From assembly GCF_012027645.1 (NCBI RefSeq), contig NZ_SNUU01000001.1, positions 1,054,001 through 1,118,000 on the forward strand: DNA of 64,000 nt. Direction: 5' to 3'. The number at the start of each line of letters is the position of its first letter. The first letter of the stretch is position 1. Below are positions 45,968 through 56,726 of this stretch, piece after piece. The DNA comes from Thermococcus sp. 18S1. Lineage in GTDB: Archaea; Methanobacteriota_B; Thermococci; Thermococcales; Thermococcaceae. A model generated the notes under the pieces. That model ran no database searches. It saw only the letters and a list, made by a program, of their open reading frames with translations, and was not told the origin of the DNA. The translations under genes were made by a program, and so were the position numbers.

Positions 45968-46018
45968 TAGAATGGTGCGGTGGCCGGGATTTGAACCCGG
46001 GCCAGCGGCGTGGCAGGC
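45968..46018. repeat. attL: 51-bp copy of the 3' part of tRNA-Gly
   Basis: Identical over 51 bp to 56644-56694 (TAGAATGGTGCGGTGGCC ... GCGTGGCAGGC). The matching sequence in the intact tRNA-Gly gene runs from the anticodon loop to a few bases past CCA. It lies inside the integrase reading frame (peptide EWCGGRDLNPGQRRGR). Confidence 0.92.
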
Positions 46019-46857
46019 ATCGGAAATCGGAGTTTTTTGGAAACGAAGGTGGGATATGGGAGTATGCAGGAGTTAAGGGCGAGTTCGGGGAGTGGTTACA
46101 TAAGAGGAAAGGCCTCGCGGACAGGACGAGGCGGGAATATGTACGTCGGCTGGAGAAGTTCTTCAATAAGTATAAAATACGAACACTCCACGACCTCGAA
46201 GCCGCCCTCGAAGCCGAGGGGAACCCCCGGAACCTCGCCAAAGCCCTGAGGAACTACATCGCCTTTCTGTTGGAGAAGGGCGTCATCGACGAGGCCTACT
46301 ACAACGAACTCAAGAAGCGAATAGTTATCCGCTCGACGGGGACTGACTTATACGTGCCCGACGACGCCGAGGTTCGGGGCTGGTATGAAAAACGCGGCGA
46401 GTGGGAGGAGCCCTACCAGTTGGTCTTCGAACTCATACTATTCAGCGGCATCAGGGTATCCGAGGCGTTGAAGGTTCTCAGCGAGTTCGAGCCGTCCCGG
46501 CTCCACATCAACGACCAGTATGCTTATTATGATTTAGGGTGGTCGAGAGGTTCGAAGAAGTCGTGGGTGGTCTTTATGCCCCCAGAGCTCGCCAACCGTC
46601 TCAAGCGCCTCACGGTCACGGACGATGGGGTGTACAGCTACTTCTCCAAGAGGAAGATCCATCTAAAATATCTCCGCAAGTGGTTCATCAATAAAGCATT
46701 GGAAGCCGGGGCACCCGTGAACGTCGTGAAGTTCCTCGCAGGCCATAGCCTATCCGGGGATATAACCTCATTACATTATATAGATATGCTGGGTCAGGCG
46801 CGACGCTACTATCCTGACATACTATATAATATACGTACTGCCACAAAAAGTTTATGA
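45970..46857 (+). pseudogene. SSV-type integrase, C-terminal part (split by integration)
   Basis: 296 codons from the att core to the stop. After EWCGGRDLNPGQRRGR the protein continues HRKSEFFGNEGG and a SAM-like core-binding domain (KGLADRTRREYVRRLEKFFN). The tyrosine-recombinase catalytic domain has Arg in FSGIRVSEAL, KxxR in LKYLRKWF, His in AGHSLSGD and the nucleophile Tyr in SLHYIDM. Joined to the right-end fragment it makes a 390-residue integrase. Alone it lacks the N-terminal part and a proper start, so it is probably inactive while integrated. It is a mechanism-driven split, not decay. Confidence 0.88.
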
Positions 46858-46889
46858 ACTCAAAAAACCTACCACGTTAAGTTGAAAGG

Positions 46890-47002
46890 TTTATAAACTC
46901 CCAACGCCACATTTTTTATGGTGGGGACAGGGGCACGTAGTCGGCGACCCTGCTGGGACGGGACGTAACAATAGGCCATAACTCACCGCCCCATATTTTC
47001 AG
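46890..47002 (+). ncRNA. RNA-like leader, copy 1 (paralogue of 47820-47944)
   Basis: TTTATAAAC (46890-46898) is a box A. About 25 bp on comes GC-rich GGTGGGGACAGGGGCACGTA GTC..., ending CTCACCGCCCCATATTTTC. GGTGGG can pair with CTCACC (one G-U), closing a ~70-nt domain that ends before a T run. A second copy with the same promoter, the same GTAGTCxGxGAC core and a compensating CCCACC lies 0.93 kb downstream. The conserved shape argues for a small RNA; its class (antisense, H/ACA-like, other) is not determined. Confidence 0.5.
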
Positions 47003-47039
47003 TGTTACACGGCCCCCTGTAACCACCAGTTTAAGCAAC

Positions 47040-47068
47040 ATCTGATATATAATAAGTTGGTGATTGTG
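47040..47068 (+). promoter_or_regulatory. Second conserved promoter before the element gene at 47069
   Basis: GATATATAATAAG sits about 24 bp before the ATG and is also present before the gene at 48019. In both cases it follows the RNA-like block and a shared CTGTAACC...CAGTTTAA stretch, so each gene seems to have its own promoter downstream of the RNA. Confidence 0.45.
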
Positions 47069-47746
47069 ATGGCAGGTGTAAAGGCGAACACGACACAGAA
47101 GGTTGAAGTGAAGGACACGTACACGTCGTACGAGGAGATGCTGGACGACGTGGTCGCGTACGTTCTACAGAACGTGGAGGGTGCGGACGAGTACACGTAT
47201 CTTGCAAGCGCTGAGTACAGTATACACTCAGGAAGCACGCCGTATGACCAGCTGTTCGCGGAGATTGACGCCGGCATCGCATCTTCACTATACAACGACG
47301 TCGAGGACTTTGGATACATTGGGTTCATCGAGGGCGACTTCGTTTCCCTGCTCGAGGAGTACCTGTCCAGCTTCGTCGACGCTATGTGTTTCTATGACAA
47401 CTACGACTATCACGTCGAGCATCTAGACGACGTGTTCGACGGCGTCTACGTTGATTGCTCGACTTACGAGCACTACCTCGACCATCGCGTGGAAGAGTAC
47501 GCAGACATCGCTGGGATCTCACCCGACGAACTCACCGAGGAAGAACTCAGCGACCTGTCCTGGGACTTCAAGGTCGAAGCCCTCACGGTTAACCTATGTT
47601 TCAGTATGCCAGCACGCCTTGTCTATAAGGAGTATACTGAAAACACAGATTTGTGCGGTTGCGTGAGTATAACGTTCTACAAGCAGAACCCGGTCGCCGT
47701 CCTGAAAAAGCTCGTCGAGGAGATAAAGAACAGGCGTGGCGAGTGA
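47069..47746 (+). CDS. Hypothetical acidic protein of the integrated element
   Basis: Not recognised. 225 residues from ATG 47069 (GGTGAT 4 nt upstream). Very acidic and rich in Tyr and Asp: KDTYTSYEEMLDDVVAYVLQ, DVEDFGYIGFIEGDFVSLLE, DNYDYHVEHLDDVFDGVYVD. It ends with a basic helix (LKKLVEEIKNRRGE). Several cysteines lie near the C terminus. The acidity suggests a DNA mimic or adaptor, but that is speculation. Confidence 0.6.
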   Translation: MAGVKANTTQKVEVKDTYTSYEEMLDDVVAYVLQNVEGADEYTYLASAEYSIHSGSTPYDQLFAEIDAGIASSLYNDVEDFGYIGFIEGDFVSLLEEYLSSFVDAMCFYDNYDYHVEHLDDVFDGVYVDCSTYEHYLDHRVEEYADIAGISPDELTEEELSDLSWDFKVEALTVNLCFSMPARLVYKEYTENTDLCGCVSITFYKQNPVAVLKKLVEEIKNRRGE

Positions 47747-47819
47747 AACAAGACATTCTCTCTTCCCTTCTGGCTCCTTCTTCAACGCGTATTTTTTCTC
47801 ATACTTTATGTTGAAAGAC

Positions 47820-47944
47820 TTATAAACTTCCAACGCCATAAGTGATATGGTGGGGGGACAGGCGGGCTCGCGGGGTAAAGTAGTCAGTGACTCGGCTGGA
47901 ATATGGTGTAACGCCCTTGTGTAACCCACCGTTCCAAATTTTTC
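47820..47944 (+). ncRNA. RNA-like leader, copy 2 (paralogue of 46890-47002)
   Basis: CTTATAAAC (47820-47828) is the box A. GGTGGGGGGACAGGCGGGC starts about 25 bp later; GTAGTCAGTGACTCGGCTGG is the core shared with copy 1. GTAACCCACC near 47930 pairs perfectly with GGTGGG, and a T run (AAATTTTTC) follows. The region then continues with the shared CTGTAACCCTCAGTTTAA and GATATATAATAAG into the next gene. Confidence 0.5.
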
Positions 47945-48018
47945 GACCCCACGGCCTCTGCCTGTAACCCTCAGTTTAAACCTTAGTCGATATATAATAA
48001 GTGGTGAGCGTGATAGTG

Positions 48019-48342
48019 ATGGAGCTGGTAAAGCTGAAAACGAAGCTCTACAACAAGGACAAGCGCCGTTCCGGCCTCGTGTTCATCGCTAAGGGCAAGC
48101 TCAACGAAGACGAGCTCGCCCTGTTCAGGAAGCTCGCACAGAAGAAGAAGGTCGTCGGCGGACTGGAGTTCTCAGAGAGCAAGGTCAGCCTGTTCACCAC
48201 CCGCGTCCACGAGCGCAGGAACGGCTTTGAGGTCATAGTGCCGCGCGCCGTGGCCGACCTTCTGGAGCCCAGCAACATTGACGTCATCGTACAGCTGAGC
48301 AGAACGGGGATAACCATAAAGCCCTGTGGAGGTGAGCACTGA
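48019..48342 (+). CDS. Hypothetical small protein upstream of the MCM-like gene
   Basis: Not recognised. 107 residues from ATG 48019 (GTG 48016 and GTG 48010 are alternatives; GGTGA lies at 48003). A compact alpha/beta protein: MELVKLKTKLYNKDKRRSGL, FEVIVPRAVADLLEPSNIDV. The second half, VIVPRAVADLLEPSNIDVIV followed by LSRTGITIKPC, resembles an AbrB-like or swapped-hairpin DNA-binding strand pattern. It ends 1 nt before the helicase start (TGATG) and is surely co-transcribed with it; it may be a replication accessory or repressor. Confidence 0.6.
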   Translation: MELVKLKTKLYNKDKRRSGLVFIAKGKLNEDELALFRKLAQKKKVVGGLEFSESKVSLFTTRVHERRNGFEVIVPRAVADLLEPSNIDVIVQLSRTGITIKPCGGEH

Positions 48343-50903
48343 TGCCGAAGACCTTCACCCTTGAGGATATGATAGATGACGTCGAGGCCAGCATCATAGA
48401 CACCCCGAAGGAAGTCAGGCCGAGCCTCAAGAAGCTGAAGGCCGGCCTCTTCAAGTACCTCAACGCCGAGGAGCGCCTTGAGCGGGCAAAGGCAAGGAAG
48501 GACGCTATGGAGATTGAGGCTACACAGAACGAGCTCGTCCGTGCGGGACAGGACATCAGTAAAGCGCTCGTGGAGTTCGTGAGCGAAGTAGATGACTGGC
48601 TTTCCAAGATCGAAGAGAGGGACGACCTCTTTGAGGCGGCCGCCCGCTACAAGGCCGACCCGCTGTCCGTCGGGGAGAAAACACAAGGAGAGCTCCTCAA
48701 GGTGACGGGCCGCGCCATTATCCTCCAAGATCTCATCATCAGGATGCTCCACACCCCGAGGCTCATCGACCTCAACAACGCAGTCGAGGTTCTTCTGGAG
48801 GGCCTCATCAGCAGGCTGGAAAAGCTCGACGACCTTCGAGTGGTGAACCGCTACGCCTTCGAGCTCCCGGACGCCAGCGACCCCCACTACAAGGTCATAC
48901 TCCGCCCCTCCAAGAAGGCCGTCTACGTCTACCCGCTGAAGTCCCTCGACGACCTCGTCCCCCTGAACATAGAGATGATACGCAAGGAGCTGGACGACGG
49001 CTTCAGGGGAGAGATACTGCTTCTCAGGCCCGACCCAAAGCACACACCGGGGACGCTCAACCTGCGCGAGGTCACGTCAGCGCACCTGTATAGACCCTTC
49101 AAGGCGAGGGCACGCGTGATACAGAGCGAGTTCCCGACCACGAGGCTCTACTACGCCCGCGTAGACCCCGAAGATGACATATTCAGGAGAATGTTGCTCC
49201 ACCAGGAGGCCTACGACGGGCACGGAAAGAGGATAAAGGCCGTCCCCGACCTTCGTAACGTCCGCGTCGACGTGCAGGAGCTCATACTCGAGGACGTTGA
49301 GAACAGCGACTTCATAATGCCTGCCTACGTCGAGCACGACCTCGTAGGAAAGCTCGAAGTTGGTAGGGAGTACGTCTTCATCGTGATACCGATTGAAACC
49401 GACCCGCAGAAGAGGGAAGGCGGCATCAAGCTCTACATCACAGCGTACGAGGACGCCAGCGCCACCGAACCGACCGAGGAAGACCTCAAGAAGTTCGAGG
49501 AGTTCAAGAGGCTCAGCCCCGCTGAGAAGCTCAGGGTGCTCACGGAAGACTTTGCCTGGTTCATCTTTCCGGAACACGCCGGGTTTACCTTGAAAGACCA
49601 AGTTCGTACAATGAAGCTCGCTATGCTCCTTTCCGCGCTCAGGGCGTCGAGTGCTCTGGAGAACACGAGGGGGATGATACACACGCTCGTGATAGGTGAG
49701 CTGGCCACAGGTAAGAGCGAAGTGGCGAGGGAGCTCGTGAAGATAACGCCGAAGAGCAGGTTCATACAGGTGAAGACGAGCCTCGCCGGCCTCATCGGTA
49801 CCACCACAAGGCTCGACGGAAAGCAGGTTGTCCGCCCCGGCGTCCTCGCCCAGGTGGACGGCGGGACGGTGGTTATAGATGAGCTGGACAAGTTCAATGA
49901 GAAGAAGAAGGAAGAACTCGCCGCCCTCAACAACGCGATGGAGCAGGGGTCGGTAACGATTACCCAGGATGGAACGAGCAGGGAGTACCCGGCACGGACG
50001 AGCATCATAGCCCTCGCCAACCCCCGTGGCGGTCTCTTCAACGAGCGCGACGTCGTCCAGGAGTTGGAGAGGCTTGGCCTCGACTACACGATGCTCAGCC
50101 GCTTTGACATCAAGATAGCGATCTACAACAAGACCATTAGGAACAGGAGGGTAGCCCTCGAGCGCGCCTCCCTCAGGAAAAAGATGGACGAGGCTGGCTA
50201 CGTCAAGACGAAGAGCAAAGAGAGAGGTCACGGCTTTGTGTTCACAAGGGAGCTACTGTCCAAATACCTCGCCTACGTCAGGGAGAAAGCGCCCACCGTT
50301 CCCGTCGACGTCGAGGGGTACCTCATAGAGGTCATAGACCGGGAGCTTCAGAAGCTTGAGAACGCCGGCTTCGAATCAAGCCTTTTGGCCGACCTCTTCC
50401 GCATCCACGACGCCGTGACGAGGGTCTCCACAGCGGTGGCGAAGCTACTCAACGAGGACGAGGTGACGAAGCTCGACGTGGATATAGCCGCCGCCCTTGT
50501 GTTCTACAGCTACCGCCTCAGCGCCGCGCTTGAGCGCTACGAGCGCGAGCAGGAAGCCCTCGATTTTATCCGCACCCTCCCGATGAGTATGAAGTCGGAC
50601 AAGTTCATTGTGGCCCTTGGCGACCTCGTTGGCCTCAACAAGGCGAAGAAGTTCGTCACGATAGTCAGGGAGCACAAGCTCGCCTCGGTCAAAAAGAAGG
50701 ATAAAGACAGGGAGTACATCTATTTCAAGGAGGGCTTCGTGGACGTCCTCAAGGCCTACCTCGCCCTGGAGGGCATCGTCAGCGAGGGTGGGGAGGTGAA
50801 GTCCGCCCGCCTACGCGAGCGCCTCGAGGAGCTGGCAAGGGGGGAAGAACAGCAGAAGCTCATCGACTTCGACGAGCTCACCGACGCCGAGCTCTTCGCC
50901 TGA
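48342..50903 (+). CDS. MCM-like AAA+ replicative helicase of the element
   Basis: 853 residues. The AAA+ core has Walker A GELATGKSE near residue 452, Walker B GGTVVIDELDKF near 507, a sensor region with the PS1-type EQGSVTITQDGTSREYPA hairpin, and the arginine-finger LSRFDIKIAIY near 585. A C-terminal winged helix is likely. The ~400-residue N-terminal part is only weakly MCM-like, and the protein contains no cysteine at all, so the usual zinc-binding subdomain is absent. It likely replicates the free element. It overlaps the upstream small gene by one base. Confidence 0.88.
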   Translation: MPKTFTLEDMIDDVEASIIDTPKEVRPSLKKLKAGLFKYLNAEERLERAKARKDAMEIEATQNELVRAGQDISKALVEFVSEVDDWLSKIEERDDLFEAAARYKADPLSVGEKTQGELLKVTGRAIILQDLIIRMLHTPRLIDLNNAVEVLLEGLISRLEKLDDLRVVNRYAFELPDASDPHYKVILRPSKKAVYVYPLKSLDDLVPLNIEMIRKELDDGFRGEILLLRPDPKHTPGTLNLREVTSAHLYRPFKARARVIQSEFPTTRLYYARVDPEDDIFRRMLLHQEAYDGHGKRIKAVPDLRNVRVDVQELILEDVENSDFIMPAYVEHDLVGKLEVGREYVFIVIPIETDPQKREGGIKLYITAYEDASATEPTEEDLKKFEEFKRLSPAEKLRVLTEDFAWFIFPEHAGFTLKDQVRTMKLAMLLSALRASSALENTRGMIHTLVIGELATGKSEVARELVKITPKSRFIQVKTSLAGLIGTTTRLDGKQVVRPGVLAQVDGGTVVIDELDKFNEKKKEELAALNNAMEQGSVTITQDGTSREYPARTSIIALANPRGGLFNERDVVQELERLGLDYTMLSRFDIKIAIYNKTIRNRRVALERASLRKKMDEAGYVKTKSKERGHGFVFTRELLSKYLAYVREKAPTVPVDVEGYLIEVIDRELQKLENAGFESSLLADLFRIHDAVTRVSTAVAKLLNEDEVTKLDVDIAAALVFYSYRLSAALERYEREQEALDFIRTLPMSMKSDKFIVALGDLVGLNKAKKFVTIVREHKLASVKKKDKDREYIYFKEGFVDVLKAYLALEGIVSEGGEVKSARLRERLEELARGEEQQKLIDFDELTDAELFA

Positions 50904-51377
50904 CCCCCTTTCTACCCCCTCTTTTCCCAGGCCCCATCGGCCCCGGCCTTGAACCCACGGTTCTGGTGTTACACGTTGTTGCGGGAAAGCTCAAGTTTTT
51001 GGGTAGTCCTGCGGGTGTCCCGTTCAATTGCGACCAAAAATTTCCCAAAATATTGTAACATAGAGTTGGCCCCAAAAGCCCCAAGGGCCCCAGGGCATAT
51101 AGAGTCAAGTCATCAACCCTGACCCCCTGCCCAGAATCTTGATGGCAACACCTCGATGGGGTTGGGGCCAATGGGGCCTCTGGGGCTGGGCCAGCACAGG
51201 GAAGCTACTCGTCCCTTGAAAAGTCAGGAACTGCTGTCGCCCTACTCGTGTCTGTAGGGGGTGTGAGGACAAAATTTGCAAGTGGCCGTACAAGTTGGGG
51301 TGACTACGCATCGGCCTCTCCCGCTCTTTTAAACCGGTTCCCCCTCCCACTGCCGGACAACAAGGGGGTGACGGGAT
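50904..51377. other. 474-bp non-coding region after the helicase gene
   Basis: No convincing gene. It is rich in GGCC and CCCC/GGGG runs (TTGGCCCCAAAAGCCCC around 51066; GGTTGGGGCCAATGGGG around 51158) that can pair with each other. An AT block (CCAAAAATTTCCCAAAATAT) lies near 51033. Its right end has box A CTTTTAAACC and GGGGGTGA for the next gene. Position beside the helicase makes it a candidate origin, but no Orc-box was recognised. Confidence 0.45.
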
Positions 51378-51707
51378 ATGGGTGAAAGCGGCTACACAGG
51401 TTACAGGGTTGATGCAACGTTTAGGTTCGGGGAGATAAGGAGGGAGAACCTGCAGAGGTTCGTGTTCCAGCTGGCTGAGGTTTTTAGTAAGGAGCGGAAC
51501 GTCGGGCGTGACCTTGCAAGTGAGCTCGAGAAGTGTAACGTAGACGTCCTACACAACGTTGAGGTGACCCTGTTCCGCGGAGAAAGTGGTGCTATGGCCA
51601 GTATTACTGGTGATGAGGTTGTAATACGCCTCATCTACGGGTACTCTACTCCTGGACGCTGGAAGCTGGACGACATCTTGAACACCTGCACCACGTCGAT
51701 TGAGTGA
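51378..51707 (+). CDS. Hypothetical protein of the element
   Basis: Not recognised. 109 residues starting MGESGYTGYRVDATFRFGEI, with mixed alpha/beta character (NVEVTLFRGESGAMASITGD). The ATG has GGGGGTGACGGGAT before it and a good box A 45 bp upstream. It is convergent with the putative restriction enzyme gene. Confidence 0.6.
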   Translation: MGESGYTGYRVDATFRFGEIRRENLQRFVFQLAEVFSKERNVGRDLASELEKCNVDVLHNVEVTLFRGESGAMASITGDEVVIRLIYGYSTPGRWKLDDILNTCTTSIE

Positions 51708-51819
51708 TCTTTTCTTCTCCACAATGTTTATGGCATTGTACTCGTTCTCTTCCAAGGTGGTCAACAAGTCTATTCCAATATATGGTGTTAAAAAAGGAGA
51801 TCCCGAACACGGCAGAAAC

Positions 51820-52587
51820 TTATGACAGATCCTTCAGTAGTCTCGAGATGTCTTCCCCGTACATCTCGTGTAACTCCCTTTTTAGCTCCTGTACTTTGAG
51901 CTCGATTGCCTCAGAGAGGGCCAAGTGTTCGGCTTTTGTGGTTTCGATTATCTTCTCAATGAGCTCATCGTAGTACTCCCTTCCCACTCCGAGGAATTTC
52001 TCGTATATCTGTCTACCGACGATGACGTAGTCCTCGGGGTTCATCCCGTATTGGGGTAGGGTTGAGGTAACAACACTCCATATGTGTTTTCCATACGTGA
52101 ACACAAGGAAGGGCCTGTAGTTGTGTTCAATTGCCTCCTTGGCGTGGTCTACAAACTTTTCGACTATGTCCTTGTTCACGTTTGTATAGCTACTCTTGAC
52201 TGCGAGGACTACTCCATCAAAGGTCTTGTTGCCCTCTGTATATGGCCTCTGTATTATAATATCCCACCAGCAGTACCACGGCTTTTGACCCCTACCAGTA
52301 CACCCATCGAGGTCTTTGCCCCGTGTACCTCCCAAGAGCACAGCCAAGAACTTCTCCATAGTCTTCTGGCCGAAGCTCGTCCCCAAGGATCGCTCAACGC
52401 GTTTATGGATAAACATCTCTATGGCGGTGTCTAGGTCGAGCCCCAACGCGGCCACCATATATGGGTTTATGCCCCCTTCGTCTACTAGTGTCTCTACTGT
52501 TATGCCGGCTATTAGTTCTTTTGCACGTCTTGCAAATTCTTTCATCTCTTCTAGTGCCAGGAGCTCCCGCTCTTCCAACGTCGTCAT
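51820..52587 (-). CDS. Putative type II restriction endonuclease
   Basis: 255 residues from ATG 52587 (AGGTGGCGACT upstream; GTG 52596 is inside that site). HKRVERSLGTSFGQKTMEKF precedes a candidate PD-(D/E)xK centre: Asp109 in WWDIIIQ and Lys131 in VVLAVKSSYTN. The ERSLGTSFG stretch recalls some archaeal type II enzymes (TdeIII/MjaII-like, low confidence). A C-terminal helical part ends LLKDLS. It is transcribed away from the AbrB-methyltransferase-glycosylase genes across a shared 95-bp control region, the classic R-M layout. Specificity is unknown. Confidence 0.7.
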   Translation of the reverse strand: MTTLEERELLALEEMKEFARRAKELIAGITVETLVDEGGINPYMVAALGLDLDTAIEMFIHKRVERSLGTSFGQKTMEKFLAVLLGGTRGKDLDGCTGRGQKPWYCWWDIIIQRPYTEGNKTFDGVVLAVKSSYTNVNKDIVEKFVDHAKEAIEHNYRPFLVFTYGKHIWSVVTSTLPQYGMNPEDYVIVGRQIYEKFLGVGREYYDELIEKIIETTKAEHLALSEAIELKVQELKRELHEMYGEDISRLLKDLS

Positions 52588-52612
52588 AGTCGCCACCTAT
52601 ATGAAGACCACC

Positions 52613-52671
52613 ACAAGCTTTTTATGTGTACCTGAGTATTACAAGCAATAGTGCTTGTAATAATGCTTGTA
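52613..52671. promoter_or_regulatory. Operator of the restriction-modification module
   Basis: The inverted repeat ATTACAAGCA (52638-52647), spacer ATAG, TGCTTGTAAT (52652-52661) is perfect. A third half-site TGCTTGTA (52664-52671) follows 12 bp after the second, and an ACAAGC half-site (52613-52618) overlaps the likely box A of the restriction gene (CATAAAAAG on the minus strand). The AbrB-like protein encoded next to it is the obvious candidate ligand. Confidence 0.65.
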
Positions 52672-52682
52672 TGGTGGGGGCG

Positions 52683-52844
52683 ATGCGAGAGAAAGTACTG
52701 GGCAGATCCAAACTATGGGGCAGGGGGTATACAACTGTTCCGGTCACAGTCAGGAGGGTGCTTGGTATAGAAGAGGGTGACAAGATCCGGTGGATTTTCA
52801 CAGATGACGGAAAAGTGGTAGTCGAAAGAGAGGAGGGTGAGTAA
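52683..52844 (+). CDS. AbrB/SpoVT-like regulator of the R-M module
   Basis: A 53-residue swapped-hairpin protein: MREKVLGRSKLWGRGYTTVP, VTVRRVLGIEEGDKIRWIFT, DDGKVVVERE. ATG 52683 follows GGTGGGGGCG. This is the SpoVT-AbrB DNA-binding fold, usually dimeric. It precedes the methyltransferase with a one-base overlap (TAATG) and lies beside an inverted-repeat operator, so it probably balances restriction and methylation, a role played by C proteins in other systems. Confidence 0.75.
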   Translation: MREKVLGRSKLWGRGYTTVPVTVRRVLGIEEGDKIRWIFTDDGKVVVEREEGE

Positions 52845-54349
52845 TGGAAGAAGCAGTGAGGTATGATACGCTCAAGCCCCAAATTTGGGCGTTCACTCAG
52901 AAGTTCCGCGGGAAAGGGTTCAGTAAGGGGGACGCTAGGGCGTACCTCTCGCTCCTGGCCGAGCTCGTACACCTTGAGACCGGCGAGGACATAGTAAGTG
53001 CGCTAGGGTGGGCCTTGGAACACGCAATGGCCCTATTCAGGAAAGGGAAGGGTGCTGTCGAGGAGGACTACCACAGGAAATACCGGGAGTGGCTAGACGC
53101 GGACAGGTCAAAAATTGACCTGAAGAGGTTTGTCCCAATGGAAAACAGAGTGAAAGCGGAGAGGTACCGGCCGGCAGAACCTGTTTACAGCATATCCCTT
53201 TTTACTGGGGCTTACGGCCTTGACCTGGGCTTTGAACAGGCAGGCTTTGAGGCCACGGTCGGCCTGGACATATCGGAGTGGTCTTACCGGAACTTCCACG
53301 CAAACCGTCCGAAGAGCCCCTTCATACTCGGAGACATAAATAAGATTTCGACAGAGGACATACTGAAGGAGGCCGGCCTCCGGCCTGGTGAAGTAGACGT
53401 CCTCACCGGCGGCCCCCCCTGCCAGCCGTTCAGCACGGCCGGGAAGAGGCAGGGGCTAAACGACCCGAGGGCCTCGGCCCTTATGCAGTACATACGGGTC
53501 ATCAAGGAAGCGAGGCCGAAGGTATTCGTGATGGAAGAAGTGACCGGGCTACTCAACGCACGCCTCAAGCACGTCCCCATAAAGGAGCGTGGTAAACGGC
53601 CTCTCCGGCCCGAAGAGGAGCCCGGCTCTGTATGGAAAGTGGTTATGAAAGAGCTCGAGGGCACTGGTTACCTAGTAAAAGACGCTGTCTTGAATGCCGC
53701 GGACTACGGCACCCCGCAGTTCCGTGAGAGGGTCATTGTCATTGGCGTCAGGCCAGACATCGCCAAGGAACTGGGGCTTACCAAGGACAGCGTGCTACAC
53801 CCAAGGCCCACCCACACAGGGCCTAACAGGAATAGGGGGAGGGCGAAAGAGGTTCCTCTTGACGAATGGCTGGGCCATAGAAAGGTTGGTCTGCCCCCGT
53901 GGCTGACCCTGGCAGAAGCGATAGCAGATATAGAAGACCACATAGGGTACATCCCGCTCGGGCCGAAGTATATGAGGTACATAAAGTACGTGCCCCCAGG
54001 GGGGAACTGGAGGCAGATACCTGACGAACTGAAGCCTGAGGCTATGAACAGCGCATACTATGCTGGGGGCGGAAAAATGGGCTTCTACCGGAGGCTCACG
54101 TGGTTCGAACCTTCCCCGACACTCGTCACCTCGCCGTCTATGAAGGCCACGATGATGGTGCACCCACTTGAGGACAGGCCAGTCTCAGTCAGGGAGTACC
54201 TCCGGATACAGGGGTTCCCTGACGACTGGAAAGTTGTTCTCTCAGTGTCACAGGCCTACAAGGTCTTTGGTGAGGCAGTGCCCGTGCCATTGGCCAGGGC
54301 AGTCGCACTCAAGGTCAGGAGGGATATCCTTGGAGTGCCCGACGCCTGA
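52844..54349 (+). CDS. DNA (cytosine-5) methyltransferase
   Basis: 501 residues. A 115-residue extra N-terminal domain precedes motif I ISLFTGAYGLDLGFEQAG. The motif IV nucleophile is GGPPCQPFSTAGKRQG (Cys193). The motif VI region reads VMEEVTGLL instead of the usual ENV. Motif VIII is QFRERVIVIGVR, and motif X is VFGEAVPVPLARAVAL. Between VIII and X lies the target-recognition domain. It makes m5C in a sequence-specific context; the target is unknown. The end overlaps the glycosylase start by 20 nt, which suggests coupled synthesis. Confidence 0.9.
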   Translation: MEEAVRYDTLKPQIWAFTQKFRGKGFSKGDARAYLSLLAELVHLETGEDIVSALGWALEHAMALFRKGKGAVEEDYHRKYREWLDADRSKIDLKRFVPMENRVKAERYRPAEPVYSISLFTGAYGLDLGFEQAGFEATVGLDISEWSYRNFHANRPKSPFILGDINKISTEDILKEAGLRPGEVDVLTGGPPCQPFSTAGKRQGLNDPRASALMQYIRVIKEARPKVFVMEEVTGLLNARLKHVPIKERGKRPLRPEEEPGSVWKVVMKELEGTGYLVKDAVLNAADYGTPQFRERVIVIGVRPDIAKELGLTKDSVLHPRPTHTGPNRNRGRAKEVPLDEWLGHRKVGLPPWLTLAEAIADIEDHIGYIPLGPKYMRYIKYVPPGGNWRQIPDELKPEAMNSAYYAGGGKMGFYRRLTWFEPSPTLVTSPSMKATMMVHPLEDRPVSVREYLRIQGFPDDWKVVLSVSQAYKVFGEAVPVPLARAVALKVRRDILGVPDA

Positions 54350-55079
54350 AGAACTAGTAACTGAGTTTAGAAAACGGCTCATAGAGTGGGGGAGGGCGAA
54401 CTATGAGGAGTGGCCCTGGAGGAAGGACAGGACACCTTACAAAGTCCTCATAGCAGAACTGTTGCTAAAAAGGACTACCAGACAGGCAGTGGGTAGGGAA
54501 TACAACAAGTTTATAGAAAAGTTCCCGGACATTGAGAGCATCTACCGGGCAAGTTTTGAGGAAGTGCGGGACGCATTTCGCCCCCTTGGCCTTTACAACC
54601 AGAGGGCAAAACAGCTCAAAGAGGTGGCCAGGGCTGTTGTGGAACAGTACGGGGGCGAGATCCCCGACGACATAGACAGGCTGAAGTCCCTCCCGGGGGT
54701 AGCTGACTACATAGCTGGGGCGGTGATGAGTTTCGGGTTTGGGAAGCCCGCCATAATACCCGACGCGAATGTGATACGGGTTCTGGCACGTGTGACGGGA
54801 ATTGAGAGGTGGTCATCAAGGGGCAAACTTAAGCTATATGCTGTGTTAGAAAAACTCCTGCCAGAAGACGGCCACGAGGACTTCAACTACGCCCTCCTTG
54901 ACCTGGGTGGTACTGTGTGCCGCTATGATCGTCCTAGGTGTTTTAAGTGTCCACTCCGGGATCTGTGTGTGATGGGGCACAACGACGAGGAAATGAAACA
55001 GTGCCTCAGAAGACTTTACAAAAAACTAGGAAAAAGGGACTCGGTACATACTAAGGTAAAAGAGCAGAACAAAAGATAG
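54330..55079 (+). CDS. HhH-GPD DNA glycosylase, Mig-type (thymine-DNA glycosylase), TTG start
   Basis: 249 residues from TTG 54330, with GGAGGG 7 nt upstream. The frame is open further 5', but that lies inside the methyltransferase. The HhH motif LPGVADYIAGAVMSFGFGKP has Tyr where endonuclease III has its catalytic Lys, as in Mig.Mth. The catalytic Asp is in IIPDANVIRVLAR. A 4Fe-4S cluster is formed by C-x6-C-x2-C-x5-C (CRYDRPRCFKCPLRDLC). This combination marks a monofunctional G:T(U) mismatch glycosylase. Next to an m5C methyltransferase its job would be to undo m5C deamination. MutY-like activity is the main alternative. Confidence 0.85.
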   Translation: MECPTPEELVTEFRKRLIEWGRANYEEWPWRKDRTPYKVLIAELLLKRTTRQAVGREYNKFIEKFPDIESIYRASFEEVRDAFRPLGLYNQRAKQLKEVARAVVEQYGGEIPDDIDRLKSLPGVADYIAGAVMSFGFGKPAIIPDANVIRVLARVTGIERWSSRGKLKLYAVLEKLLPEDGHEDFNYALLDLGGTVCRYDRPRCFKCPLRDLCVMGHNDEEMKQCLRRLYKKLGKRDSVHTKVKEQNKR

Positions 55080-55364
55080 GGCTCTGGAGGTACTCAGTCC
55101 GTAGCCGGTCTTGTGCTGTATACGTTCTTTCAGTTTTTCCAATTTGGACAGGCTGGTACTGTCAAGGTAGACACTGAGAAGTGCTGTCCTGCCACAGACA
55201 GCAGGGTTGTCCAAGTTTTCCAGTACAAACTTCAGGAAATCTCCCCTACGTTTGGACGCGGTGTTGATGGCCCGTATAATAATGGCCGTCTTGTTATTTC
55301 GGACGTTTTTGTCAAAGGCGTCCAGGATTGGGTAGGGTATTGAAAACGTCTTCTTCTCCTTCAC
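55026..55364 (-). CDS. Small DNA-binding-like protein (RHH candidate)
   Basis: 112 residues, GTG start. Not recognised with certainty. VYLDSTSLSKLEKLKERIQH followed by STSRALSFVLLFYLSM has the strand-helix-helix layout of ribbon-helix-helix regulators. The 5' side faces an inverted repeat (55398-55440) shared with the divergent gene at 55451. The 3' end overlaps the glycosylase gene by 54 bp on the opposite strand. Confidence 0.5.
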   Translation of the reverse strand: MKEKKTFSIPYPILDAFDKNVRNNKTAIIIRAINTASKRRGDFLKFVLENLDNPAVCGRTALLSVYLDSTSLSKLEKLKERIQHKTGYGLSTSRALSFVLLFYLSMYRVPFS

Positions 55365-55397
55365 CTTTACACCGGTATAATGATATCATAAAAACAC

Positions 55398-55440
55398 CTT
55401 AAGGCATCGGGTACTGTGCCTTAACGATGGTTTAAGGCAC
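55398..55440. promoter_or_regulatory. Inverted-repeat operator between divergent element genes
   Basis: GTGCCTTAA (55416-55424) and TTAAGGCAC (55432-55440) form a perfect 9-bp inverted repeat with a 7-bp spacer. An additional CCTTAAGG palindrome (55398-55405) carries the same CCTTAA core. It lies between the RHH-like gene (minus) and the gene at 55451 (plus) and fits autoregulation. Confidence 0.6.
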
Positions 55441-55450
55441 TTCCCATATA

Positions 55451-55963
55451 ATGCGTACTGGTGAAACCGTGAGGGACGACACCTTCAGTGTCCTGCAGGA
55501 GTTTATATCGCCCCGGGAAGCGTTCGAACAGCTAGACCTTCTCGCCCCGCACTTTATCGGCAGAGATGCGACGGCAGAGACGGTCATACTGAGCGTTAAG
55601 TACGAGGAGCTGATGCTACAACTGGAAGGGCTACTGGAAGACGCTGACAGGATAAAGGCCGCCCTCGAGGCCGGCAATATTGACCCCGAGGAGGCGAAGA
55701 TCGAGCTGTTAGACGTGCTATATGGGGTCAGGAATATCATCGGAGAACTAGAAGTCGTCGAGGCCCTACGCGCGAGGTTCGGGGTGGGGTATGTCGAAGT
55801 CCTCAGTGAATACCTCCGGGCCCTGGGGGCAATAGCGTTTGCCGAGCTGGTACAGAAGAACGGGGACGTCGTGTCCAGGGTGAAACAGGAAGTGGCGCAG
55901 AGGTGGGGCATCTATCTTCCTTCCCTAGAAGGGCACCACGACGTGAGGGGAGATGATAGTTGA
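55451..55963 (+). CDS. Hypothetical helical protein of the element
   Basis: Not recognised. 170 residues, mostly helical and acidic: SPREAFEQLDLLAPHFIGRD, LMLQLEGLLEDADRIKAALE, VGYVEVLSEYLRALGAIAFA. The ATG lies 11 bp after the inverted-repeat operator, so repressor binding would block its transcription or translation. It overlaps the next small membrane gene by 11 nt. Confidence 0.6.
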   Translation: MRTGETVRDDTFSVLQEFISPREAFEQLDLLAPHFIGRDATAETVILSVKYEELMLQLEGLLEDADRIKAALEAGNIDPEEAKIELLDVLYGVRNIIGELEVVEALRARFGVGYVEVLSEYLRALGAIAFAELVQKNGDVVSRVKQEVAQRWGIYLPSLEGHHDVRGDDS

Positions 55964-56189
55964 CCGCTCGGTGACCTTCCCTCTTTTTGTTTCAGGGGTA
56001 GCCCTCCTCCTGCTGTCCGCTAGTGTGGGGCCTGCTCTAGCTCACACTGGGTGGTGGCGGACGTTTTTTGTGTTCGTAGCCGGGGAGTCTTTTCTTGTCG
56101 CTGTGATAAGCCTCCGAGTGGCACTGTGGAACTACCGGCTGAGGAGACTGGTCTACGGCCCAATAATCCCGAAACGAAAAAGGTGGTAG
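55953..56189 (+). CDS. Small membrane protein of the element
   Basis: 78 residues with two hydrophobic helices (FPLFVSGVALLLLSASVGPAL and FFVFVAGESFLVAVISLRVAL split by HTGWWRT) and a basic C-terminal tail (RLRRLVYGPIIPKRKRW). The ATG is preceded by GTGAGGGGAG and overlaps the upstream gene, so the two are coupled. The function is unknown; a holin-like or membrane anchor role is possible. Confidence 0.55.
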   Translation: MIVDRSVTFPLFVSGVALLLLSASVGPALAHTGWWRTFFVFVAGESFLVAVISLRVALWNYRLRRLVYGPIIPKRKRW

Positions 56190-56205
56190 TAGTTATGGTG
56201 TCTCT

Positions 56206-56228
56206 GGACGTTTCTCTCCTGAACGTCC
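56206..56228. promoter_or_regulatory. Hairpin upstream of the tRNA-like sequence
   Basis: GGACGTT (56206-56212) and AACGTCC (56222-56228) form a perfect 7-bp stem with a 9-nt loop, 13 bp before the tRNA-Gly-like copy. It may be a processing signal, an operator or a terminator of the preceding gene. Confidence 0.4.
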
Positions 56229-56241
56229 ACTGGCTTGAACT

Positions 56242-56317
56242 GCGGTGGTGGTCTAGCCTGGTCTAGGACAGCGGGCTGGCGCGGCGGTGGCCCGGGCGGG
56301 CGTTGTTTTACCACCAG
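56242..56317 (+). pseudogene. Degenerate tRNA-Gly-like sequence inside the element
   Basis: The first 55 bases match tRNA-Gly(GCC) at 49 positions; positions 1-33 differ at one base only (A9 to G). Later changes are C or A to G and destroy the anticodon stem. A CCACC at 56311-56315 can still pair with GGTGG of the 5' end, giving a tRNA-sized unit of 76 nt. It lies on the strand opposite to the real tRNA-Gly gene, 350 bp away. The well-conserved part is the half that the att site does not carry. Confidence 0.6.
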
Positions 56318-56329
56318 AACTGTAATATA

Positions 56330-56347
56330 GTTGTACAGCAGTTGTAC
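56330..56347. promoter_or_regulatory. GTTGTAC repeats before the integrase start
   Basis: GTTGTAC occurs at 56330-56336 and 56341-56347 (11-bp period), and GTACA/TGTAC form an inverted repeat inside. They lie 14 bp before the integrase ATG next to TAATATAG, as expected of a repressor site controlling integrase. Confidence 0.45.
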
Positions 56348-56360
56348 TGGCTGGTGGTAT

Positions 56361-56705
56361 ATGGTGAAAGCCCGGTTCTCACGTTCCCGGTCTAAGGGAT
56401 ATACGTACGCTTACTGCCGTCTCAAGGATACGGAGCTGATAGGAAAGACCTTCGAGGTGATAAAGGGTGAAGTGGGCGGCAGGACTGTTCTTATCTTCGT
56501 TGAGGAAGAACGAGTTGCACAACAGTTGTGCAAATCGAATGAAGAAAACAGCCTCGTAGAAGTCCTCACGAAGATTTTTTCCCGTAAAACCGGAGGAGAG
56601 CCTAATTCGAAGCCCGTAGAAGTTGCAGAAACCACAGAAGACGTAGAATGGTGCGGTGGCCGGGATTTGAACCCGGGCCAGCGGCGTGGCAGGCCGCTGT
56701 CCTAG
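56361..56705 (+). pseudogene. SSV-type integrase, N-terminal part (split by integration)
   Basis: Starts ATG 56361 after CTGGTGGTAT: MVKARFSRSRSKGYTYAYCR, then IGKTFEVIKGEVGGRTVLIF and VEVLTKIFSRKTGGEPNSKP. It enters the att core at EWCGGRDLNPGQRRGR and runs only three residues beyond it before a stop in the tRNA gene. The frame at att equals that of the left-end part, so circularisation restores 390 residues. A perfect 19-bp palindrome (TTGCACAAC A GTTGTGCAA, 56515-56533) lies within it. Confidence 0.85.
56644..56694. repeat. attR: 51-bp repeat within tRNA-Gly
   Basis: The second copy of the 51-bp repeat. It covers tRNA-Gly positions 33 to the 3' end plus CCA and five flanking bases. Here the tRNA gene is intact, so the element rebuilt the 3' half of the gene on entry. 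Confidence 0.92.
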
Positions 56706-56726
56706 ACCAGGCTAGACTACCACCGC
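56649..56726 (-). tRNA. tRNA-Gly (GCC anticodon), integration target
   Basis: The minus-strand acceptor GCGGTGG pairs with CCACCGC, with A discriminator and encoded CCA. The anticodon arm GCGGC CTGCCAC GCCGC gives GCC. The T arm is CCGGGTTCAAATCCCGG. The gene is intact, and its 3' part (from the anticodon loop) is duplicated at the left end of the element. Confidence 0.96.

Follow-up and report, generated by a model that had tools for sequence, protein, structure and literature searches.

The closest described relatives of the locus analysed here are MthTI with Mig.Mth on the Methanothermobacter plasmid pFV1 and, in function, Dcm/Vsr of E. coli, in which the gene for a 5-methylcytosine (m5C) DNA methyltransferase overlaps a gene downstream of it that encodes a T:G repair enzyme, as here it overlaps that of a probable one. 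How hyperthermophiles tolerate m5C-based immunity is a standing question, because m5C deaminates quickly to T at their growth temperatures, and previous authors have guessed at an 'original repair system' (PMC10609329, PMC8557920). We analysed a 64,000-nucleotide stretch of Thermococcus sp. 18S1 (main contig NZ_SNUU01000001.1, positions 1,054,001 to 1,118,000; 'the window' denotes this whole stretch), in which a four-gene module lies within an integrated mobile element. We consider it probable that this module is a mobile, type II-like m5C restriction–modification (R–M) module carrying its own mutation-avoidance enzyme. It is of an already known kind; what is new is that a Thermococcaceae element combines a SinI-like methyltransferase with Mig and a regulator of AbrB type, and that Mig recurs in DISARM. 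An initial annotation, made from the letters of the window, had proposed that a hyperthermophile lineage holds an m5C R–M-type module equipped with a Mig-type glycosylase of its own; this is supported by gene content, gene overlap and Mig-like features of the glycosylase. It had also raised the prospect of an undescribed defence system, and this did not hold: MthTI/Mig was known, and V (repair) genes had already been counted in Thermococcales in a 2023 REBASE survey (0.045 per genome, ~2/44; Table 1, PMC10609329).

The module and its enzymes

The module spans positions 51820–55079, with a minus-strand gene followed by three plus-strand genes that run head-to-tail without gaps:

51820..52596, minus strand: putative restriction endonuclease (258 amino acids (aa); likely start ATG at 52587; role suggested by position)
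52637..52671, no strand: candidate operator (inverted repeat plus third half-site, between the divergent genes)
52683..52844, plus strand: AbrB/PrlF-like regulator (53 aa; best start ATG 52683; the open reading frame opens at 52626)
52844..54349, plus strand: m5C DNA methyltransferase (501 aa; N-terminal extension of ~110 aa; predicted site GGWCC)
54330..55079, plus strand: Mig-type helix–hairpin–helix (HhH)/iron–sulphur DNA glycosylase (249 aa; start TTG 54330)

The methyltransferase and glycosylase genes overlap by exactly 20 nt, as had been claimed, with the best glycosylase start (TTG 54330) closely preceded by the Shine–Dalgarno sequence AGGAGG and the methyltransferase stop (TGA) at 54347–54349; one step upstream, the stop of the regulator and the start of the methyltransferase share TAATG (52842–52846). 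The open reading frames proposed initially are all present, and their assignment to an AbrB-like regulator, an m5C methyltransferase with a PCQ motif and an HhH/iron–sulphur glycosylase was confirmed, as was the claim that the regulator differs from that of the pFV1 version and that the methyltransferase is N-terminally extended by comparison. The interval first proposed began at 52587, where the start codon of the putative endonuclease does lie, but it left out the body of that gene, which extends to the left on the minus strand as far as 51820. Profile searches matched the regulator to antitoxin families (PrlF_antitoxin, 1.3e-7, and MazE_antitoxin, 3e-6, in Pfam; PRK09974, 2e-9) with an AbrB fold. 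A perfect 11-bp inverted repeat (TATTACAAGCA-ATAG-TGCTTGTAATA) and a third half-site occupy the intergenic space between the divergent genes (52637–52671), making this stretch a plausible operator candidate.

The methyltransferase (Pfam DNA_methylase, PF00145, 1.1e-62; dcm, 1e-58) carries motif IV as GGPPCQ. Its closest N-terminally extended relatives are found on plasmids (of Pseudomonas, Treponema and Ligilactobacillus), each adjoining a SinI-family restriction endonuclease, and SinI cuts GGWCC. Because the nearest extended methyltransferases are paired with SinI-family enzymes, the predicted target is most likely GGWCC. The target-recognition region is 38–42% identical to those of the SinI-linked relatives, versus 21–23% to those of the pFV1 and DISARM methyltransferases, and two further relatives with no known restriction endonuclease score equally in this region.

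On sequence and model features, the glycosylase looks Mig-type rather than MutY or EndoIII. It matches Pfam HhH-GPD (5e-19) and the PADLOC V-type model (1.7e-42) and has iron–sulphur cysteines spaced C-x6-C-x2-C-x5-C; its best sequence match in the Protein Data Bank (PDB) is 1KEA, the Mig.Mth thymine-DNA glycosylase of pFV1 (6.6e-41), which is again the top fold match (2.4e-13) of an AlphaFold2 (AF2) model built from window and locus sequences (pLDDT 93). MutY catalytic cores rank close behind 1KEA in both sequence and fold matches, and individual residues were therefore checked, with the determinants that separate Mig from MutY taken from PMC2714593. In Mig numbering, the alignment gives Trp27, Glu42, Arg47, Tyr126, Asp144 and Tyr187. 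The Tyr/Asp pair that had been read as the mark of a Mig enzyme is present (Tyr126 and Asp144) but is not diagnostic, being common to most MutY; the identity turns on other residues. Position 187 is hydrophobic as in other methyltransferase-linked Migs (L, F, W or Y; Leu187 in Mig itself), unlike in MutY-type proteins, most of which carry Gln or Glu there. The MutY C-terminal domain for recognition of 8-oxoguanine (8-oxoG) is absent, the 249 aa comprising the catalytic core and a short low-confidence tail. At the Mig-126 position the glycosylase has Tyr and not the catalytic Lys of EndoIII; the host's own EndoIII, the one other match in the host genome, has Lys.

The integrated element and its missing sites

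That the module is mobile, as first claimed, is borne out by att repeats in tRNA-Gly, a split integrase and an occurrence in 1 of 94 Thermococcaceae genomes. The element measures 10,676 bp (45968–56643), is bounded by a perfect 51-nt direct repeat and is integrated in tRNA-Gly(GCC); across the att site the two integrase halves join in frame into an intact 390-aa protein, a pattern that by its sequence is partitioned SSV-type. For the left half of the element, the 93 remaining Thermococcaceae genomes gave no real DNA match, and the element is therefore sporadic and presumably a recent arrival. Its features beyond the module are as follows:

45968..46018, no strand: attL (51-nt perfect direct repeat, tRNA-Gly(GCC) sequence)
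45970..46857, plus strand: SSV-type tyrosine integrase, C-terminal part (PHROG 5127 integrase, 3.1e-54)
48342..50903, plus strand: MCM-type helicase (Pfam MCM, 2.1e-30)
56361..56705, plus strand: SSV-type tyrosine integrase, N-terminal part (joins the C-terminal part in frame)
56644..56694, no strand: attR (second repeat copy, inside tRNA-Gly(GCC) at 56649–56726, minus strand)

MCM helicases are also encoded by some archaeal plasmids and viruses. Inside the element, beside attR and on the opposite strand, lies a second, degraded tRNA-Gly part (56241–56296; 50/56 positions). Blocks that are ~79–81% identical (46874–46926 with 47803–47855, and 47016–47057 with 47961–48002) recur upstream of two neighbouring genes and are possible duplicated leader or origin repeats.

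The predicted site, entered into site counts on the strength of the SinI-type relatives, is absent from the element: GGWCC occurs 0 times, with 13.7 occurrences expected from host density and 32.8 from a first-order Markov model. Synonymous shuffling of the coding part gave a mean of 19.5, and 0 of 1,000 shuffles was as low as the observed count; GGSCC occurs in normal numbers. C-to-T decay was rejected as the main cause of this loss, the products GGWTC and GAWCC not being in excess (39 seen, 48–50 expected). Avoidance of restriction targets is known from plasmids (PMC10359461). As a separate observation, plasmid pTN3 has 0 GATC sites, with 88 expected.

Recurrence of Mig with m5C methyltransferases and DISARM

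The arrangement in the window had been taken for a second version of the pFV1 system. It is not an isolated one: Mig–methyltransferase pairs occur widely, and DISARM is among the systems that have them. In a set drawn from glycosylase searches, which (like our survey outside Thermococcota) is a sample and not a census, 16 of the 19 Mig-type glycosylases lie near an m5C methyltransferase, versus none of the 12 MutY-type glycosylases (Fisher p 3e-6). Such pairs are found on pFV1, Caldicellulosiruptor pCALKR01, two Thermus thermophilus plasmids and four haloarchaeal plasmids, as well as on a Lokiarchaeota (Asgard) contig, a Thermoflexales contig, three IMG/VR contigs and in three Thermococcaceae, including the window. 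The IMG/VR contigs with m5C methyltransferase and Mig-type pairs (L045, L061 and L062) are of virus type. The overlap order, whose lack of conservation in relatives had been put forward as grounds for abandoning the proposal, recurs with unrelated methyltransferases (overlaps of 49 and 49 nt in two other Thermococcales, 29 and 29 nt in Thermus and 26 nt in Thermoflexales).

In two of these Thermococcales, a DISARM operon (drmA-drmB-drmC-drmMII) closes with a Mig gene that overlaps drmMII, and recombinase genes lie beside it:

L077:1009-9547: DISARM-Mig locus of G017 (PADLOC DrmA, DrmB and DrmC plus DrmMII)
L078:2429-11005: DISARM-Mig locus of the metagenome-assembled genome Thermococcales archaeon 44_46 (PADLOC DrmA, DrmB and DrmC)

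PADLOC scores in the two loci were 1571/1657 bits for DrmA, 734/791 for DrmB and 160/172 for DrmC; DrmMII scored 849 bits for the G017 methyltransferase, and a close homologue occupies the same place in 44_46. By their sequence matches, both loci thus hold drmA, drmB, drmC and drmMII in one operon and belong to DISARM. A DISARM–Mig pairing was not found reported in the literature searched, which was one library, so that its absence there is not proof of novelty; the most relevant paper in it treats DISARM but not this pairing.

Together, these observations incline us, if only a little, towards the view that Mig is a repair accessory which serves m5C-based immunity in thermophiles generally and is assorted horizontally, being attached, often by overlap, to unrelated methyltransferases both in type II R–M (the element here, pFV1, Caldicellulosiruptor and Thermus) and in DISARM (two Thermococcales). 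If this is true, defence by 'modify, restrict and repair' would be modular in its architecture and more than the curiosity of one plasmid, and a modular Mig would help to account for the tolerance of m5C-based defence at 85–100 °C. An element whose overlapping genes supply both the mark and the enzyme presumed to repair it, along with DISARM–Mig, makes the question directly testable in genetically tractable Thermococcus, and the Mig–methyltransferase loci show where thermostable T:G glycosylases may be sought.

Proposed mechanism, alternatives and known systems

From what these protein families do, we infer m5C at GGWCC, T:G activity, restriction activity and regulation of the module. The methyltransferase would mark a single short sequence, GGWCC being the most likely, with m5C in the DNA of both host and element, and the mark would protect both from the divergent putative restriction enzyme, which would cut unmarked DNA. 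In the heat of growth, m5C would deaminate to T, giving T:G mismatches from which the translationally coupled Mig-type glycosylase would excise T (and U), with host base-excision repair restoring C. The AbrB/PrlF-like protein may bind the inverted repeat between the divergent genes, balancing modification and restriction.

Several observations weigh against this reading. In methyltransferase motifs VI (53524–53540; EEV, usually ENV) and X (54269–54283; GEAV, usually GN(A/S)V), the usual Asn is in both cases Glu, unlike in all 7 relatives aligned, and the catalytic Glu is kept; given these altered motifs, methyltransferase activity is uncertain. The 258-aa divergent protein has no significant match in Pfam, NCBIfam, PADLOC, PHROGs or PDB sequences, and its PD-(D/E)XK signature is incomplete (D112 and K134 are present, with Ala132 at the D/E position). 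Position 50 of the glycosylase is Arg (Ala in Mig, Val in MutY), so the pocket is not a plain Mig copy, and our tree does not reject a join of the window glycosylase to MutY (p-AU 0.43). Most of the m5C methyltransferase loci found here in Thermococcaceae are without Mig. Besides GGWCC, the element is also without CATG (0 vs 36 expected) and GCWGC (0 vs 12) and has almost no GANTC, all of which the host chromosome has; other sites being depleted too, the absence of GGWCC fits the prediction and need not reflect this module. The depletion of GGWCC, CATG, GCWGC and GANTC may be a record of restriction enzymes met, and the avoidance of several sites points to selection by such enzymes. The premise that hyperthermophiles avoid m5C needs tempering: beyond the Mig-less Thermococcaceae loci, M.ApeKI is an m5C methyltransferase in a hyperthermophile without Mig (PMC8557920), and a CCWGG m5C methyltransferase is persistent in Pyrococcus and Crenarchaeota (PMC10609329).

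The alternative that survives best is a modification and repair pair without restriction, in which the divergent gene would encode a non-nuclease and the methyltransferase would be solitary, or would act against restriction by shielding the element from host enzymes. The divergent gene that had been called a putative restriction enzyme exists, but its protein has, besides the incomplete signature, no relatives in plasmids, phages, IMG/VR or 115 Thermococcota genomes, and its single-sequence AF2 model is poor (pLDDT 48). The alpha–beta order of the model resembles PD-(D/E)XK enzymes, and D112 and K134 could be catalytic; the best fold match, EcoO109I (E 0.025), is not significant, low-confidence models giving unreliable matches. 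Solitary methyltransferases are, moreover, common in archaea (PMC10609329), and the absence of GGWCC would make self-protection needless. We nevertheless regard a pair without restriction as unlikely: divergent genes, a regulator and an inverted repeat common to both sides are what type II R–M systems typically show, the nearest extended methyltransferases all adjoin a SinI-family endonuclease, and the best fold match of the divergent protein, weak as it is, is a restriction enzyme.

Candidate families for the 258-aa protein were also considered and rejected, SinI (PF09570) for want of a Pfam match and with an hhalign probability of 0.3%, and TdeIII/MjaII and EcoO109I for want of sequence support, though the last of the searches matched no control either. 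RE_TdeIII (MjaII-like) endonucleases are carried by six Thermococcales, and in the five loci viewed (L079–L083) they lie between a methyltransferase-like gene and an apparent gene for the DNA polymerase D large subunit.

A second alternative concerns the glycosylase, which might be a captured MutY-like enzyme with A:8-oxoG or A:G as its substrate, or else an enzyme of general base excision, its place beside the methyltransferase being incidental. Its best NCBIfam model is mutY (4e-53), though far below the cut-off (180.7 vs 286.5 bits), and the nearness of MutY cores to 1KEA, the permitted MutY join and the non-Mig residue at position 50 all fit this explanation. Against it stand the absent 8-oxoG domain, Tyr and not Gln/Glu at position 187, and Arg47 and not Gln. 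In the tree, the window glycosylase, whose branch is long, falls outside a starred clade of twelve MutY-type proteins, and overlap with an m5C methyltransferase is seen with other Mig-type proteins and with no MutY-type protein in our sample. The tree alone cannot decide, and MutY and EndoIII identities were rejected on residues, domains and fold; a MutY-only enzyme, which had been listed among the outcomes that would overturn the proposal, is thus disfavoured in spite of Arg50, and we hold a captured MutY to be quite improbable. It is very improbable indeed that the glycosylase itself restricts by removing bases from foreign DNA or DNA that lacks the modification. Pyrococcus abyssi does have restriction by base excision (PMC10273834), but there the protein belongs to an unrelated family, and in PADLOC the Mig-like proteins come under type II nicking enzymes; against this reading, Mig.Mth is a mismatch repair glycosylase and Mig-type genes also accompany DISARM and R–M sets with their own restriction endonuclease (pFV1, Caldicellulosiruptor).

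Read as an R–M module with its own repair enzyme, the locus most resembles MthTI/Mig.Mth of pFV1 (GGCC), which likewise combines an m5C methyltransferase, a restriction endonuclease and a short Mig-type glycosylase (~36% identical) on a mobile archaeal element and for which the same repair of m5C deamination at high temperature is proposed. The pFV1 system differs in its NgoPII-family endonuclease and its methyltransferase of another subgroup, and its mig gene stands apart from the R and M genes on the opposite strand; the window instead has a SinI-like extended methyltransferase whose gene overlaps that of the glycosylase, a different regulator, an orphan putative endonuclease and different pocket residues at positions 50 and 187. 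The DISARM–Mig loci of G017 and 44_46, from the same archaeal family, share the m5C methyltransferase with an overlapping downstream Mig gene (39–41% identical), but have DrmA-DrmB-DrmC in place of a type II endonuclease and a methyltransferase of another subgroup (29% identical). SinI-family type II R–M systems (GGWCC) resemble the window in their methyltransferases (37–39% identical, with a partly alignable N-terminal extension and a similar target-recognition region), whereas the divergent gene of the window does not encode a SinI-family endonuclease and the bacterial systems viewed are without an annotated adjacent Mig. Dcm/Vsr, finally, the very-short-patch repair system of E. coli, resembles the module in its overlapping gene order and in the function proposed here, but Vsr is an endonuclease that nicks strands and has a different fold, whereas Mig is a glycosylase.

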